This document shows positions 3,031-31,293 of a stretch of DNA of 64,000 nucleotides, piece after piece. The stretch lies in NCBI RefSeq assembly GCF_900142985.1, contig NZ_LT670849.1, positions 1,984,001-2,048,000 on the forward strand, written 5' to 3'. The position numbers were made by a program, and so were the translations under genes. The notes beneath the pieces are model-generated. The model worked only from the letters and a program-made list of their open reading frames with translations. It was not told where the DNA came from and searched no databases. Origin of the DNA: Bradyrhizobium erythrophlei. Its GTDB lineage: Bacteria > Pseudomonadota > Alphaproteobacteria > Rhizobiales > Xanthobacteraceae. The first letter of the stretch is position 1. Each line of letters opens with the position of its first letter.

Positions 3031-4005
3031 CTACTCCGGCTCGACCCCGCTCGCCTTTACGAGCTCCGACCACTTCTTTTCGTCCTTGTCGATGAAATCG
3101 GCATATTCTTCCGGCGTGCTCGGCGTGATCTCGGTTCCGTCAAGCTCGAGCTGCTTTTTTACCTCATCGGAGGCAAGCGCCGTTTGCAGCGCCGCGTTGA
3201 GCTTGTCGATGACAAAGCGCGGCGTGCCCGCGGGCGCCACGAGACCATAGGCGAGGACCGCATCGAAGCCTGTGACACCGGCTTCGATCATCGTCGGCAC
3301 ATCGGGCAATAACGGGTTGCGGCGGACCGAGGTCACGGCAAGGCCGCGCAACAAGCCCGCCTTGACGTTGCCGGCGGTGGTCGCGATCGGCGAGAACGAC
3401 ATCGGAATATGTCCGCCCAGGAGGTCGCTGACGGCCGGTCCCGATCCCTTGTAGGGGATGTGAACGATCCGGATTCCGGCCGCACGCGCAAAATACTCGC
3501 CCGTGATATGGCCCACCGTGCCGATGCCGGCCGAGCCGAAGTTGACCTTGCCCGGATTGGCTTTGGCATAAGCGATCGCCTCGGCCACGGTCTTCGCGGG
3601 AAACGACGGATGCACCACGAGCGACGACGGCGCGCTGCCGATCATGCCGATCGGCACAAAATCCTTGCGCGGATCGTAGCCGGCACTGCGGTAGAGAGAC
3701 GGGGCGATCGCAAGCGTGCCGGTGTAACCGACCATGAGCGTGTAACCGTCCGGTTCGCTCTTGGCGACCGCCTTGGCGCCGACCGTGCCGCCTGCCCCGC
3801 CTCTGTTGTCGACAATGATGCTTTGGCCGAGCAACTGGCTCATCCGGTCGGCGATCACGCGTCCGACGAGCGAGGTCGAACCGCCCGGCGGAAACGGGAC
3901 CACGAATGTGATCGTGCGGCTCGGATAGGTTTGCGCGCCGGCGACCCCACTGCCGACGCCGAGCGCGACCAACAACTGGGCAAGCAACGCGCTCACACCG
4001 CGCAT
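3031..4005 (-). CDS. Tripartite tricarboxylate transporter-type solute-binding protein (TctC/Bug family)
   Basis: A 324-residue periplasmic binding protein. The signal peptide MRGVSALLAQLLVALGVGSGVAGA is followed by QTYPSRTITFVVPFPPGGSTS, the standard Bug/TctC opening whose PGG loop grips the carboxylate of the ligand. Further family blocks are VDNRGGAGGTVGAKAVAK, DGYTLMVGYTG, VNFGSAGIGTVGHI and VPTMIEAGVTGFD. GGGAGG just before the ATG at 4005 fixes the start; a longer frame to 4077 adds non-signal residues. No TctA or TctB membrane gene is beside it, which is common for the large orphan Bug sets of alpha- and betaproteobacteria, so the substrate is unknown. Confidence 0.88.
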   Translation of the reverse strand: MRGVSALLAQLLVALGVGSGVAGAQTYPSRTITFVVPFPPGGSTSLVGRVIADRMSQLLGQSIIVDNRGGAGGTVGAKAVAKSEPDGYTLMVGYTGTLAIAPSLYRSAGYDPRKDFVPIGMIGSAPSSLVVHPSFPAKTVAEAIAYAKANPGKVNFGSAGIGTVGHITGEYFARAAGIRIVHIPYKGSGPAVSDLLGGHIPMSFSPIATTAGNVKAGLLRGLAVTSVRRNPLLPDVPTMIEAGVTGFDAVLAYGLVAPAGTPRFVIDKLNAALQTALASDEVKKQLELDGTEITPSTPEEYADFIDKDEKKWSELVKASGVEPE

Positions 4006-4157
4006 GGGCAGACCTCCCGAATATTCCCTATTTTCTCTCATCGTCGTCGAAAGCAGAGGCCTCTGCAAGGCGACCATTCCGCTTGACTAAGAGGTACTAT
4101 CGATTGAAGAAATGGCCGCAAAATGCGAACAAAATCACGCCTGCAAGAAAGCTTCCG

Positions 4158-4586
4158 ATGACGACAGAACCGGCCCACGAAAAGCTGAAAGCGGCCGGCT
4201 GGACCGAGGTCGAAACCAGCGGGTTCCTGAACCTGATCGGCCCGCTGTGGGAGCGTGCCGAGGATGGCAATCACGAATACGCGATCCTCGCAGAGCACAA
4301 GCATCACAACCGCCGCGACCGGGTGCAGGGCGGCGTGTTGATGACGCTGGCCGACCGCGCCTCGGGCATGATCGCGCGGCTGGTTTCCGGACGGCCGACG
4401 CTTGCCACGGTTCAGATGGACGTGCATTTCATCGACGCGGGACAAATCGGCGAACTTCTGATCGCAAAGCCGCGCGTGGTCCGCGTCACGCACACGCTGA
4501 TCTTCACCGCCACCGAGGTCGTGGCCGAAGGCCGGGTCGTTGCGACCGCCAGCGGCGTCTTCAAGATCCTCAAAGACAACTCCTGA
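4158..4586 (+). CDS. PaaI-type hotdog-fold thioesterase
   Basis: A 142-residue single hotdog domain. The block DRVQGGVLMTLADRASGMIAR (about 55-75) is the family's central helix, where HGG is usual; here it reads QGG, with the neighbouring Asp and the backbone glycines in place. Strand motifs TVQMDVHFI and GRVVATASGVFKIL complete the fold. Family members hydrolyse acyl-CoA thioesters, often of aromatic or short acyl groups, in the cytoplasm. The start MTTEPAHEKLK was chosen because the upstream extension in the frame is lysine- and arginine-rich and unlike the family. It is followed 35 bases later by an aldo/keto reductase on the same strand. Confidence 0.82.
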   Translation: MTTEPAHEKLKAAGWTEVETSGFLNLIGPLWERAEDGNHEYAILAEHKHHNRRDRVQGGVLMTLADRASGMIARLVSGRPTLATVQMDVHFIDAGQIGELLIAKPRVVRVTHTLIFTATEVVAEGRVVATASGVFKILKDNS

Positions 4587-4621: not shown

Positions 4622-5629
4622 GTGGAGTATCGTCAACTTGGCCGCAGCGGCCTCAAGGTTTCACCGATCTGCCTCGGCACCATGATGTTCGGCGGGCCAA
4701 CCGATGAAGCGACCTCGATGCGCATCGTCGCGAAGGCGCGCGAAGCCGGCATCAACTTCATCGATACGGCGGACGCCTATTCGAGCGGCGGCTCGGAGAC
4801 CGTGGTCGGCCGCGCCATTTCCAACAACCGGCCGGGCTGGGTGCTAGCGACAAAACTCGCCAATCAGATGGGCGACGATCCCAGCCGCGGCGGCCTGTCA
4901 CGGCGTTGGGTGCTGCAAGCCGCCGACGAAAGCTTGAAGCGGCTCGGCACCGACTACGTCGACATCTACTATCTGCACAAGGAAGACCATGCGACACCGC
5001 TTTCGGAAACCGTGCGCGCGATGGGCGAACTGATCAAGCAGGGCAAGGTGCGCTATTTCGGCGTCTCGAACTTTCGGTCCTGGCGCGTCGCTGAAATCTG
5101 CAACATCTGCGACGATATCGGCATCGATCGCCCGATCGTCAGCCAACCCTATTACAACGCGATGAACCGCATGCCGGAAGTCGAGCACATTCCCGCCTGC
5201 AATTATTATGGGCTCGGCATCGTCGCCTATAGCCCGCTCGCGCGCGGCGTACTCACCGGCAAATACAAGCCGGATGCCGCGCCGGACGCCAGCACGCGCG
5301 CAGGTCGCAGCGACACCCGCATGATGCAGACGGAATGGCGGCCGGAGTCGCTGCAACTGGCGCAGGAAATCCGCAAGCATGCGGAAGCGCGCGGCATCAC
5401 CGCGGGCCAGTTCGCGGTCGGCTGGGTGCTCAACTCGGCCTTTGTCACTGGCGTCGTCGCCGGCCCGCGCACCGAAGCGCATTGGGACGACTATGTGCGC
5501 GCGCTCGACTATCGTTTCACGGCCGATGACGAAGCCTTGATCGACCGGCTCGTTGTCACAGGTCACCCGTCGACGCCCGGCTACAACGATCCGCAATACC
5601 CGATCGAAGGCCGGAAGACGCGCGGTTAG
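4622..5629 (+). CDS. Aldo/keto reductase
   Basis: A 335-residue NADPH-dependent oxidoreductase of the AKR fold, length typical. It opens MEYRQLGRSGLKVSPICLGT and shows the catalytic tetrad: Asp and Tyr in FIDTADAYSSGGSE, Lys in WVLATKLAN and His in YYLHKED. The cofactor side carries SPLARGVLTGKY and a C-terminal AGPRTEAHWDDYVRAL. The GTG start at 4622 has AAAGGAA eight to nine bases upstream. The family reduces or oxidises sugars, aldehydes and ketones; the exact substrate is not visible. Placement just after the thioesterase suggests a shared transcript, ended by a hairpin at 5686-5710. Confidence 0.92.
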   Translation: MEYRQLGRSGLKVSPICLGTMMFGGPTDEATSMRIVAKAREAGINFIDTADAYSSGGSETVVGRAISNNRPGWVLATKLANQMGDDPSRGGLSRRWVLQAADESLKRLGTDYVDIYYLHKEDHATPLSETVRAMGELIKQGKVRYFGVSNFRSWRVAEICNICDDIGIDRPIVSQPYYNAMNRMPEVEHIPACNYYGLGIVAYSPLARGVLTGKYKPDAAPDASTRAGRSDTRMMQTEWRPESLQLAQEIRKHAEARGITAGQFAVGWVLNSAFVTGVVAGPRTEAHWDDYVRALDYRFTADDEALIDRLVVTGHPSTPGYNDPQYPIEGRKTRG

Positions 5630-5685
5630 GCTCTGGCGTACCCACACCAGCAACAAAGCGAAACATTTTCGGACGGAAAGATCGT

Positions 5686-5715
5686 CCCCGGCAGGCAAAG
5701 CTTGCCGGGGTCTTA
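5686..5715 (+). terminator. Candidate intrinsic terminator after the aldo/keto reductase
   Basis: CCCCGGCA (5686-5693) pairs with TGCCGGGG (5703-5710) around a nine-base loop that can itself partly pair, followed by TCTTAAT. The stem is strong but the T run is short, so termination is likely rather than certain. Confidence 0.55.
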
Positions 5716-5836
5716 ATGGCGCACGCGCAATTGGGCGTTGATTTACAAAGCTAATTTATCTGGCCTGAGCTTTGCTTTGCTCATGTATGGGGGTTCGTGT
5801 CGGTTGCGTGAGTTTGCTCACAAAAGGCCATGAGAC

Positions 5837-26932: not shown

Positions 26933-28021
26933 ATGAAGATCCAACAAGTCAAGGTCAACTTCGTCCGCCTGCCGGAAGAAGAGCCATTGGTCGGCGCGCC
27001 CTTCATGGTCGGGATGATGCGCGAATTCTTCACGGTACAGGTGCAGACCGACGATGGGCTCGAAGGCATCGGCGTCACTGCGTTCGGCGGCAAACTCGTG
27101 CGCTCACTGCGCGCCGCGCTCGAAGAGCTTGGCGAGGTGATCAAGGGCGAGGATCCGTTACGCGTCGAACAGGTGACCGCAAAAATGCGGGCCGCGTCGG
27201 CATCCTGCGGTTCCGGCATCGCCATGCTGGCGATTTCCGCGATCGACACCGCGTTGTGGGACATCCGCGGCAAGGCCTTCAACGTTCCGCTGGCGCGGTT
27301 ATTGGGCGGCGTACGCGACAAGGTGCCGGCCTACGCCAGCGGCGCGCTGTCGCGCACGACGCCGACCGACAAGCTGCAACGCGCCGCCGCCGCGCTGGTC
27401 GAGAAGGGTTATCGGCAGATCAAGACCCAGATGGCCGTGGCAGGGCTCACGCCGGTGCAGGAAATCGAGCGCATCCGGCTGGTGCGCGACGCGGTCGGGC
27501 CAGATGTCAACCTGATGGTCGATATCAATCAGCGCTGGAGCGTCGCCGAAGTAATTTCGATCGGCCATCAAATCGAAGATCTCCGGCTCGGATGGCTTGA
27601 AGACCCGACCACGTGCGACGATCATCAGGGGCACGCGAAGATCGCCGATGCGCTGGCAACGCCGGTCTGCGCCGGCGAATATCTCTGGGGCATCGAGCCG
27701 CACCGGCAGGCGCTGGCGCACCACGCGAGCGATATCACAATGATCGATCTGCTGCGGGTCGGCGGCGTGACGCAGTGGATGAAGGTCGCCGGCATGGCGG
27801 AGGCCTTCAACAAGCCCGTGGCCAGTCACCTGCTGCCGGAAATCCATGTCCACCTGATCGCCGCCATACCGAACGGGCTGGTGGTCGAATACATGCCATG
27901 GACCTGGCGCCTGTTCGAGAACCCACCGATTCCGGTCAACGGCGAAATCGCGGTGCCGTCAGGAGCAGGGCTCGGACTGAAATTCGCAGCCGACCTGTTC
28001 CAGAAATACGGCGTCAGCTAG
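26933..28021 (+). CDS. Second mandelate racemase/enolase-superfamily enzyme
   Basis: A 362-residue relative of the gene before it. Barrel motifs are RQIKTQMAV (Lys on strand 2), Asp in LMVDINQRWS, Glu in GWLEDPT, Glu in CAGEYLWG and His in ASHLLPEIHVH. The pair are clearly distinct in sequence, so they probably act on different substrates or steps rather than forming one enzyme. GGAG lies shortly upstream of the ATG. The stop TAG at 28019-28021 is part of the CTAG that bounds a hairpin repeat beginning at 28018, so the gene end and the repeat edge coincide. Confidence 0.9.
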   Translation: MKIQQVKVNFVRLPEEEPLVGAPFMVGMMREFFTVQVQTDDGLEGIGVTAFGGKLVRSLRAALEELGEVIKGEDPLRVEQVTAKMRAASASCGSGIAMLAISAIDTALWDIRGKAFNVPLARLLGGVRDKVPAYASGALSRTTPTDKLQRAAAALVEKGYRQIKTQMAVAGLTPVQEIERIRLVRDAVGPDVNLMVDINQRWSVAEVISIGHQIEDLRLGWLEDPTTCDDHQGHAKIADALATPVCAGEYLWGIEPHRQALAHHASDITMIDLLRVGGVTQWMKVAGMAEAFNKPVASHLLPEIHVHLIAAIPNGLVVEYMPWTWRLFENPPIPVNGEIAVPSGAGLGLKFAADLFQKYGVS

Positions 28022-28093
28022 TGGTCCGATTCTAACATTTGCATCCCTTCTCAGCAGTCACTTTTGCAAATGTTGGAATCAAAGGACCACTAG
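28018..28093. repeat. CTAG-bounded bulged hairpin, type H1, copy 1
   Basis: The outer stem is CTAGTGGTCC with GGACCACTAG (10 pairs). Inside it, GATTCTAACATTTG faces CAAATGTTGGAATC with one G:T change. Three extra bases, AAA, bulge on the right arm only. The loop is about 25 bases. The left CTAG contains the stop codon of the preceding gene. It is nearly identical to 30894-30968. Confidence 0.85.
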
Positions 28094-28106
28094 CAAATAT
28101 AGTTAT

Positions 28107-28185
28107 CTAGTGGAGTTTTGGATTTGACATTCGCTTTCCGGACTCGCGGCTAGGTCGGTAGCGAATCTCAAATCCACTCCACTAG
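28107..28185. repeat. CTAG-bounded bulged hairpin, type H2, copy 1
   Basis: The outer stem is CTAGTGGAGT with ACTCCACTAG. The inner stem GGATTTGACATTCGCT faces AGCGAATCTCAAATCC with one mismatch. TTT bulges on the left arm. It is separated from the H1 element by 13 bases beginning CAAATAT. The tenth outer pair is T-A here and C-G in the copy at 30982, a compensating change. Confidence 0.85.
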
Positions 28186-30893: not shown

Positions 30894-30968
30894 CTAGTGG
30901 TCCGATTCTAACATTTGTACCCTTCTCGGCAGGCACTTTTACAAATGTTAGAATCAAAGGACCACTAG
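30894..30968. repeat. CTAG-bounded bulged hairpin, type H1, copy 2
   Basis: CTAGTGGTCC pairs with GGACCACTAG, and GATTCTAACATTTG pairs perfectly with CAAATGTTAGAATC. AAA bulges on the right arm. Loop sequence and orientation match the copy at 28018-28093, so the two are direct repeats. Confidence 0.87.
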
Positions 30969-30981
30969 CAAATATCGGTTT

Positions 30982-31060
30982 CTAGTGGAGCTTTAGGATT
31001 TGACATTCGCTTGTGGAACGCGCGACCAACGCTTAGCGAATGTCAAATCCGCTCCACTAG
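30982..31060. repeat. CTAG-bounded bulged hairpin, type H2, copy 2
   Basis: CTAGTGGAGC pairs with GCTCCACTAG and GGATTTGACATTCGCT pairs perfectly with AGCGAATGTCAAATCC. TTTA bulges on the left arm. It lies 13 bases after H1 copy 2, the same spacing as in copy 1. Confidence 0.87.
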
Positions 31061-31123
31061 CGGCTGAATCAACCAACCTTGCGGCGAACTTAACGGCGAC
31101 GGTCCTGCTTGTCGACAACAAGG

Positions 31124-31202
31124 CTAGTACCGCCGATCTGAAGTCCCTGTATAACAAGCGGCGAATTCGATCAGGGACTTCAGATCGACAAAGCGGTACT
31201 AG
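31124..31202. repeat. CTAG-bounded bulged hairpin, type H3
   Basis: CTAGTACCGC pairs with GCGGTACTAG. CGATCTGAAGTCCCTG pairs perfectly with CAGGGACTTCAGATCG. ACAAA bulges on the right arm. The layout is the same as types H1 and H2, with different stem sequences. Confidence 0.85.
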
Positions 31203-31216
31203 AATCAATGAGTTTG

Positions 31217-31293
31217 CTAGTGCCCATGTCTTTCCGAAGTTCGTAAAAGGTGGGCGCTGAGGTGGAGTACGAACTTCGGAAAGTGGGCACTAG
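31217..31293. repeat. CTAG-bounded bulged hairpin, type H4
   Basis: CTAGTGCCCA pairs with TGGGCACTAG. CTTTCCGAAGTTCGTA pairs perfectly with TACGAACTTCGGAAAG. TGT bulges on the left arm. It is the fourth hairpin in the 515-base gap 30875-31389 and ends 97 bases before the ABC binding-protein gene. Confidence 0.85.

Follow-up and report, generated by a model that had tools for sequence, protein, structure and literature searches.

Paired CTAG-bounded hairpins in Bradyrhizobium erythrophlei: a probable IS630-type mobile element whose stems look constrained in place

The described systems that come closest to the hairpins analysed here are small bacterial repeats and the mobile elements related to them. 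The repeat unit of pneumococcus (RUP) is, like the present element, small, non-coding and present in many intergenic copies, it has TA ends and termini resembling those of IS630, and its mobilization by IS630-Spn1 has been proposed (PMC2229807). The same source describes the Correia or NEMIS repeats of Neisseria, which share with the present family the small size, the TA ends and the long stem-loops. The Tc1/mariner-like insertion sequences ISY100 and IS630 are connected to our hairpins by arm-sharing elements that encode an IS630 transposase; IS630 elements insert into TA and duplicate it (PMC2170065), and preferential transposition into 5'-CTAG-3' is named in the reference list of that paper. 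REPIN or BIME repeats and their RAYT enzymes offer another likeness, i. e. inverted hairpin pairs with a high intergenic copy number, and the reviewed REPs measure 20-40 bp (PMC3733652). Finally, Br-REP1, Br-REP2 and the GTAG-14 and CGTC families are palindromic intergenic repeats of the same bacterial group (PMC3733652, PMC5082802).

The locus studied here lies in the window, that is, the whole stretch of 64,000 nt that was analysed. The region that was originally noted contains two hairpin pairs, and a third pair of the same family lies elsewhere in the window:

28018..28185, + strand: hairpin pair 3, same family, outside the noted region; hairpin 28018-28093, spacer 28094-28106, hairpin 28107-28185; model scores 82.4 and 76.2 bits
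30894..31060, + strand: hairpin pair 1, 167 bp, subtype GGTCC / GGAGC, based on sequence, repeats and fold; spacer 30969-30981; model scores 81.1 and 75.8 bits
30894..30968, + strand: hairpin H1; outer stem 30894-30903/30959-30968, inner stem 30904-30919/30940-30955, bulge AAA at 30956-30958 on the spacer-side arm
30982..31060, - strand: hairpin H2; outer stem 30982-30991/31051-31060, inner stem 30996-31011/31035-31050, bulge TTTA at 30992-30995 on the spacer-side arm
31124..31293, - strand: hairpin pair 2, 170 bp, subtype ACCGC / GCCCA, based on sequence, repeats and fold; spacer 31203-31216; model scores 73.4 and 81.4 bits
31124..31202, + strand: hairpin H3; outer stem 31124-31133/31193-31202, inner stem 31134-31149/31172-31187, bulge ACAAA at 31188-31192 on the spacer-side arm
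31217..31293, - strand: hairpin H4; outer stem 31217-31226/31284-31293, inner stem 31230-31245/31268-31283, bulge TGT at 31227-31229 on the spacer-side arm

The first-pass annotation had described four hairpins with a common plan, and their positions, the outer stems of ten pairs running from CTAGT to ACTAG and the one-sided bulges are exactly as described; the inner stems, given there as 14-16 pairs, are perfect stems of 16 pairs in all four. If H2 and H4 are turned over, all four bulges indeed fall on the same arm, and the bulge of H4 then reads ACA. As single-stranded DNA, H1 to H4 fold with z-scores of -8.1 to -9.6 (200 shuffles each). The judgement that such a design is unlikely by chance holds as well: when CTAG was not required, a scan of 1,245,378 bp of unique DNA from the genome that carries the window (60 stretches around known matches plus the window) yielded 233 such hairpins, as compared to two in 396,020 bp of a block-shuffled control. 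Too strong, in contrast, was the statement that the stem sequences differ completely, for the inner stems share a core of approximately TTYYRAMRTTCS and the loops a GCSGC-like motif in 38 aligned hairpins. These 38 distinct hairpins, taken from the window and the loci L001-L028, align as one family; standard pairs occupy 96.0% of 949 pair cells as compared to a shuffled mean of 75.0%, and both-sided changes occur at 18 of 25 pairs, in an alignment with three slightly misaligned rows. Thus, the stems vary together and are yet not unrelated. CTAG itself is scarce in the window: dinucleotide shuffles predict 66.4 occurrences, whereas there are 33, of which the feet of the six hairpins in pairs 1-3 account for 12. 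The stop codon of the open reading frame 26933-28021 is the TAG within a CTAG foot of pair 3 (28018-28021), so that it is supplied by the target of the element.

The natural unit is the pair: a hairpin, an AT-rich spacer of 13-14 nt and an inverted hairpin, together about 167 bp, with CTAG at all four feet and the bulged arm of each hairpin on the spacer side. Three of these units lie in the window. The 233 hairpins of the scan group into 101 pairs and 31 singles, and a fair share of the singles resemble unrelated palindromes. The gap measures 12-15 nt in 98 of the 101 pairs, and in 97 both bulged arms point toward the spacer, which is conserved and oriented (length 13 in 71 pairs, approximately CAAATATAkGtTT). 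According to our simple, uncurated gene calls (1035 genes, 80% coverage), 97 pairs are intergenic, three partly so and one lies within a gene, unlike the CTAG sites outside the hairpins, which are 216 genic and 217 intergenic. The design recurs in loci of six other genera, where both bulges face the spacer in 17 of 21 pairs; 16 of these pairs, including all four exceptions, come from the single genome G175. The subtypes have preferred partners, an observation that is qualitative only, with some hairpins one base out of register in the table.

Several copies depart from the regular form. A hybrid hairpin (G000:C1:1756110-1756184) combines the left outer arm of one partner type with the right outer arm of the other, as though a pair had lost its central part by deletion. 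In locus L299 (1463-1739) of the relative G181, two hairpins are 124 nt rather than 13 nt apart. Two old pairs in G018 (L046, 3522-3688 and 4471-4636) adjoin or overlap the starts of the open reading frames 3518-4462 and 4637-5716, which by eye resemble flagellar export genes; a role of these hairpins as gene boundaries was considered and rejected, the matches being two separate old pairs between open reading frames.

The family is large and widespread. The genome of the window has 236 matches with exact edges, and as the fetched stretches yielded 134 such matches for 218 scored hairpins, the true number may be near 380. The expectation that further copies would turn up elsewhere was borne out: the matches per genome of model R1 are lower bounds, and they place the family in at least 11 of 41 genomes including the window's own, all belonging to its genus, of which 25 were searched. 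In a wider search of the bacterial family, at least 111 of 198 genomes and at least 33 of 47 genera matched, again including the own one, and this disposes of the concern that no copies exist in other genomes. In ten chosen genomes, the exact-edge counts were 869 (G175), 794 (G251), 476 (G184), 169 (G206), 166 (G199), 95 (G275), 51 (G231), 46 (G181), 44 (G202) and 7 (G015).

Short, gene-free, present in many copies and precise at its ends, the pair has the properties by which MITEs are recognized. In G010, the block common to seven loci runs from CTAG to CTAG, measures 165-177 nt and is 97.7-99.4% identical; the flanks of these loci are unrelated. In G181, 8 of 16 fetched loci have a complete, nearly identical pair of about 166 bp; five others are cut by the contig end, one has a 124-nt spacer, one is of another subtype, and in one further locus the second hairpin lacks exact edges. 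Empty sites, which the first-pass annotation proposed to look for, were found at one insertion site: the element of L042 is absent from all ten relatives examined (117 genomes searched), each of which has a single NTAN in its place, i. e. CTAG in six, CTAA in two, and TTAA and CTAC in one each. At this one site with its ten relatives, insertion thus occurred at TA, preferably at CTAG. Filled sites have CTAG at both ends, which is compatible with duplication of TA or of CTAG or with an element ending in CTAG; some copies end TTAG...CTAA or CTAG...CTAA, as fits a TA duplication. At the window's own sites, L047, L049, L050, L052 and L091-L094 have no hairpins between the same two genes (the hairpin-model scan covered L047, L049, L050 and L052), and their intergenic DNA is too diverged for the junction to be read.

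The first-pass annotation had proposed to look for a transposase whose ends share the stems. In relatives, there are IS630 elements whose inverted ends match the unbulged outer arms without gaps. A pattern made from the G010 arms (three mismatches allowed) found inverted ends 1.2 kb apart twice in G065, as compared to one match in five genomes for the reversed pattern. Between one such pair of ends, L105 encodes a 390-aa protein that NCBIfam places in IS630 (269 bits, cut-off 100) and Pfam in DDE_3. Among the best 30 related IS630 loci, 27 have both ends; several other IS630 loci gave no clear ends. Ten of the 12 IS ends tested agree, in their best gapless match, with an outer arm of the window's genome at 13-16 of 19 positions, a score that at most 4 of 300 shuffles reach; the two others, both from G015, match the arms of the window's genome no better than shuffles. 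The G010 arms agree with the IS end of G080 at 17 of 19 positions. In other IS lineages the ends are different and come close to other hairpin subtypes: an element of G019, with a 47% identical protein, ends in CTAGTGGATCGAATCTAACACTTGGT and CTAGTGGACCAAATCTAACGCTTCGA, near the GGTCC subtype of the window's genome, and an element of G175 ends in CTAGTGTTCCGTCTCGCAAATCAGTT and CTAGTGTCCTGACTCTCAATTGCCTT, near G175 arms such as CTAGTGTGGCGTCTCGCAATTGCCTA. The lineage match is modest, with scores of 13 and 14 for the G175 ends on G175 arms versus 12 and 12 on arms of the window's genome. Read straight through, the inner arms agree with the IS ends at only 7-10 of 19 positions because of the bulge, which follows from the anatomy and is no independent proof.

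The genome of the window has no PF13358 match at E 0.001, and a search with the L105 protein gave only three matches there (best E 1e-3), none of them convincing; the same search found no IS630 in five of eight hairpin-rich relatives, including G251 with its 794 exact-edge matches. A cognate IS630 was thus not found in the same genome, whereas G175 has IS630 copies with similar ends. Either the transposase has been lost from the window's genome and these five relatives, or something else acts there. MITEs can outlive their transposase partner, so that a cognate IS630 is not strictly defining. Two further observations concern G175. IS630 copies at L235, L237, L240, L241 and L243 seem to be seated at the CTAG foot of hairpin pairs, the hairpins ending where the IS end begins. 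A further IS630-like group (L244-L252) has open frames of 243 aa, about 31% identical to L105, and, in nine of nine loci, is bounded by CTAGTCGCTCGCTTCAAATAATTTGA / CTAGTCGCCCGATTCATTCAGATTGA as inverted ends at a distance of about 1.25 kb.

The anatomy, the precise ends, the empty sites and the IS ends together make one reading the best: with a probability of roughly 80%, the four hairpins are two copies of an IS630 (Tc1/mariner-like) MITE whose mobile unit is the hairpin pair. The earlier idea of IS630-type mini-elements inserted at C-TA-G is supported by the CTAG ends in unrelated flanks, the NTAN empty sites and the IS630 ends that match the arms. We suggest that the two unbulged outer arms would serve as the terminal inverted repeats of the pair, that an IS630-type transposase supplied in trans by another element would cut at these arms, and that it would paste the pair into the TA of a CTAG, which would leave CTAG at both ends; by the IS630 rule, the target duplication would be TA. 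Each outer arm has a complementary inner counterpart on the spacer side, in which 3-5 extra bases separate the first 10 bp from the remainder. It is tempting to speculate that these extra bases shift the cut site relative to the binding site, so that the inner arms would be unfit as ends and the pair would move as a whole. Recognition by a protein would be implied, and selection, either on pairing or on binding, may now also preserve the stems where they sit. It speaks against this reading that a plain MITE would leave unexplained both the complementarity of inner and outer arms and the slow change of the stems at shared insertion sites.

The stems look constrained in place when copies at the same insertion site are compared, since they diverge less than loops, spacers and flanks. 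By their homologous flanks, 32 of the 45 loci taken around matches could be grouped into ten sets, and for one genome pair per site the stems differ at 33 of 996 positions, the loops and spacers at 120 of 595 and the flanks at 904 of 7975; in a stricter selection of five sites, the figures are 12/498, 30/298 and 467/3998. The stems lie below the loops in nine sets, and the tenth is unchanged in both. L266 was left out with its long insertion in a hairpin arm; this shared-site copy of G115 carries more than 100 nt inside the arm. Because paired sites are not independent, we relied not on Fisher values but on sliding the stem/loop mask through the flanks; in 5000 placements the stem/loop ratio ranged from 0.54 to 1.95 and never came down to the observed 0.164, and no placement reached the low stem rate of 3.3%. 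With slightly different genome pairs (stems 32/997), six changes are double and keep the pairing, 16 are single and two of other kinds. These data and the intergenic position of 97 of 101 pairs by our gene calls speak for a domesticated host element whose stems are under purifying selection, e. g. as a paired protein-binding or cruciform-forming site, and so do 40 GAGT-type copies of the window's genome, in which outer arms differ by 2.5%, inner arms by 1.8% and loops by 31%. We give this reading even odds; it is compatible with an IS630 origin, not with present copies that are merely dead MITEs. Against it stands that the shared-site loci were selected by similarity to the window elements, which favours kept stems (the dimer matches in the selected list reach down to 68-69% identity), and that sites with loops much more diverged than their flanks could owe this to exchange between copies. 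Chance hairpins at the same loci show a weaker tendency in the same direction: their stems differ at 17 of 200 positions versus 118 of 896 in flanks (p 0.07) and 22 of 121 in loops (p 0.013). All extra hairpins together, one of them a family member, give 23/350 for stems, 38/204 for loops and 195/1613 for flanks, and among unselected extra pairs at shared sites no clean one was found. Among the matches listed for G199 (L218 and other places), stems of one subtype are nearly identical and the loops widely different.

The paired changes just mentioned, including a both-sided foot change (CAAG/CTTG) in L285, would also result if replication slippage with template switching copied one arm onto the other without any selection. 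We regard this as quite doubtful: by our own argument, copying alone should not slow the stems below the loops, yet they are slower, and it would tend to erase the one-sided bulge, which is kept in 97 of 101 pairs. Selection might instead act on RNA, the hairpins being transcription terminators or processing sites, and 37 elements start within 50 nt of an upstream stop codon (53 same-direction gene pairs by our own gene calls). This is unlikely, for divergent genes flank 26 of the 97 intergenic pairs, close to the expectation from gaps of 50 nt or more (156/634), the elements are not restricted to gene 3' ends like intrinsic terminators, and both hairpins show the same plan on both strands. 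On the transcribed strand, there is no excess of G-U over A-C mismatches (33 versus 25, p 0.36), nor is there a difference overall (64 versus 58). Two mir-203 matches in Rfam (25.9 and 22.2 bits, gathering score 65) were judged to be chance. The first-pass annotation had also offered a REP-associated tyrosine transposase, and the high copy number, the mostly intergenic position and the inverted hairpin pairs with a short spacer do recall REPIN/BIME palindromes spread by a Y1 enzyme. This suggestion has hardly any probability left: the genome of the window has no Y1_Tnp (PF01797) match, whereas 5 of 14 control genomes do, its hairpins of 74-80 nt carry CTAG at both feet instead of a GTAG or CGTC tag, and their outer arms match IS630 ends. 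For this genome, we consider the REP/RAYT reading practically refuted.

Taking the IS630-type MITE as the starting point, we can tentatively conceive of the family as a DDE-transposon counterpart of the REPIN/RAYT system: possibly, IS630-derived pairs became host elements across a bacterial family, their stems selected in place, their arm sequences following the specificities of successive IS630 transposases and the 3-nt bulge acting as a spacing switch that makes the pair the unit of movement. Should our reading be right, a mobile element whose design has no description that we found in searchable papers is present in tens to hundreds of copies in many members of a single bacterial family, and its shared-site copies seem to be conserved. 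The element would then allow a direct test of whether bacterial intergenic repeats are leftovers or serve the host, with natural filled and empty sites, several lineages of transposase ends and a simple hypothesis for the bulge as material.

How does the pair compare with the known systems? No title or abstract describing it was found in the literature search, most subscription journals lying outside its reach. When up to two substitutions were allowed, consensus pieces of Br-REP1 and Br-REP2 had no match on the given strand of the 1.25 Mb fetched from the window's genome. As compared to REPIN/BIME repeats, the present hairpins are longer, have other tags and belong with another transposase family, and their genome has no Y1 enzyme. 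IS630 itself differs in that it encodes a transposase, which the hairpin pair does not. According to PMC2229807, the only account known to us, RUP and the Correia elements are the nearest relatives: RUP measures 107 bp with end repeats of 9 bp, whereas in the present unit, which occurs in several subtypes, both hairpins are bulged and 74-80 nt long and their arms measure about 25 bp, and Correia/NEMIS repeats, of about 107 or 155 bp with end repeats of 24 bp, have no pair of complete hairpins. What sets the present family apart from these systems thus seems to be the paired bulged hairpins, the subtypes that seemingly follow IS lineages and the stems that are apparently constrained in place.
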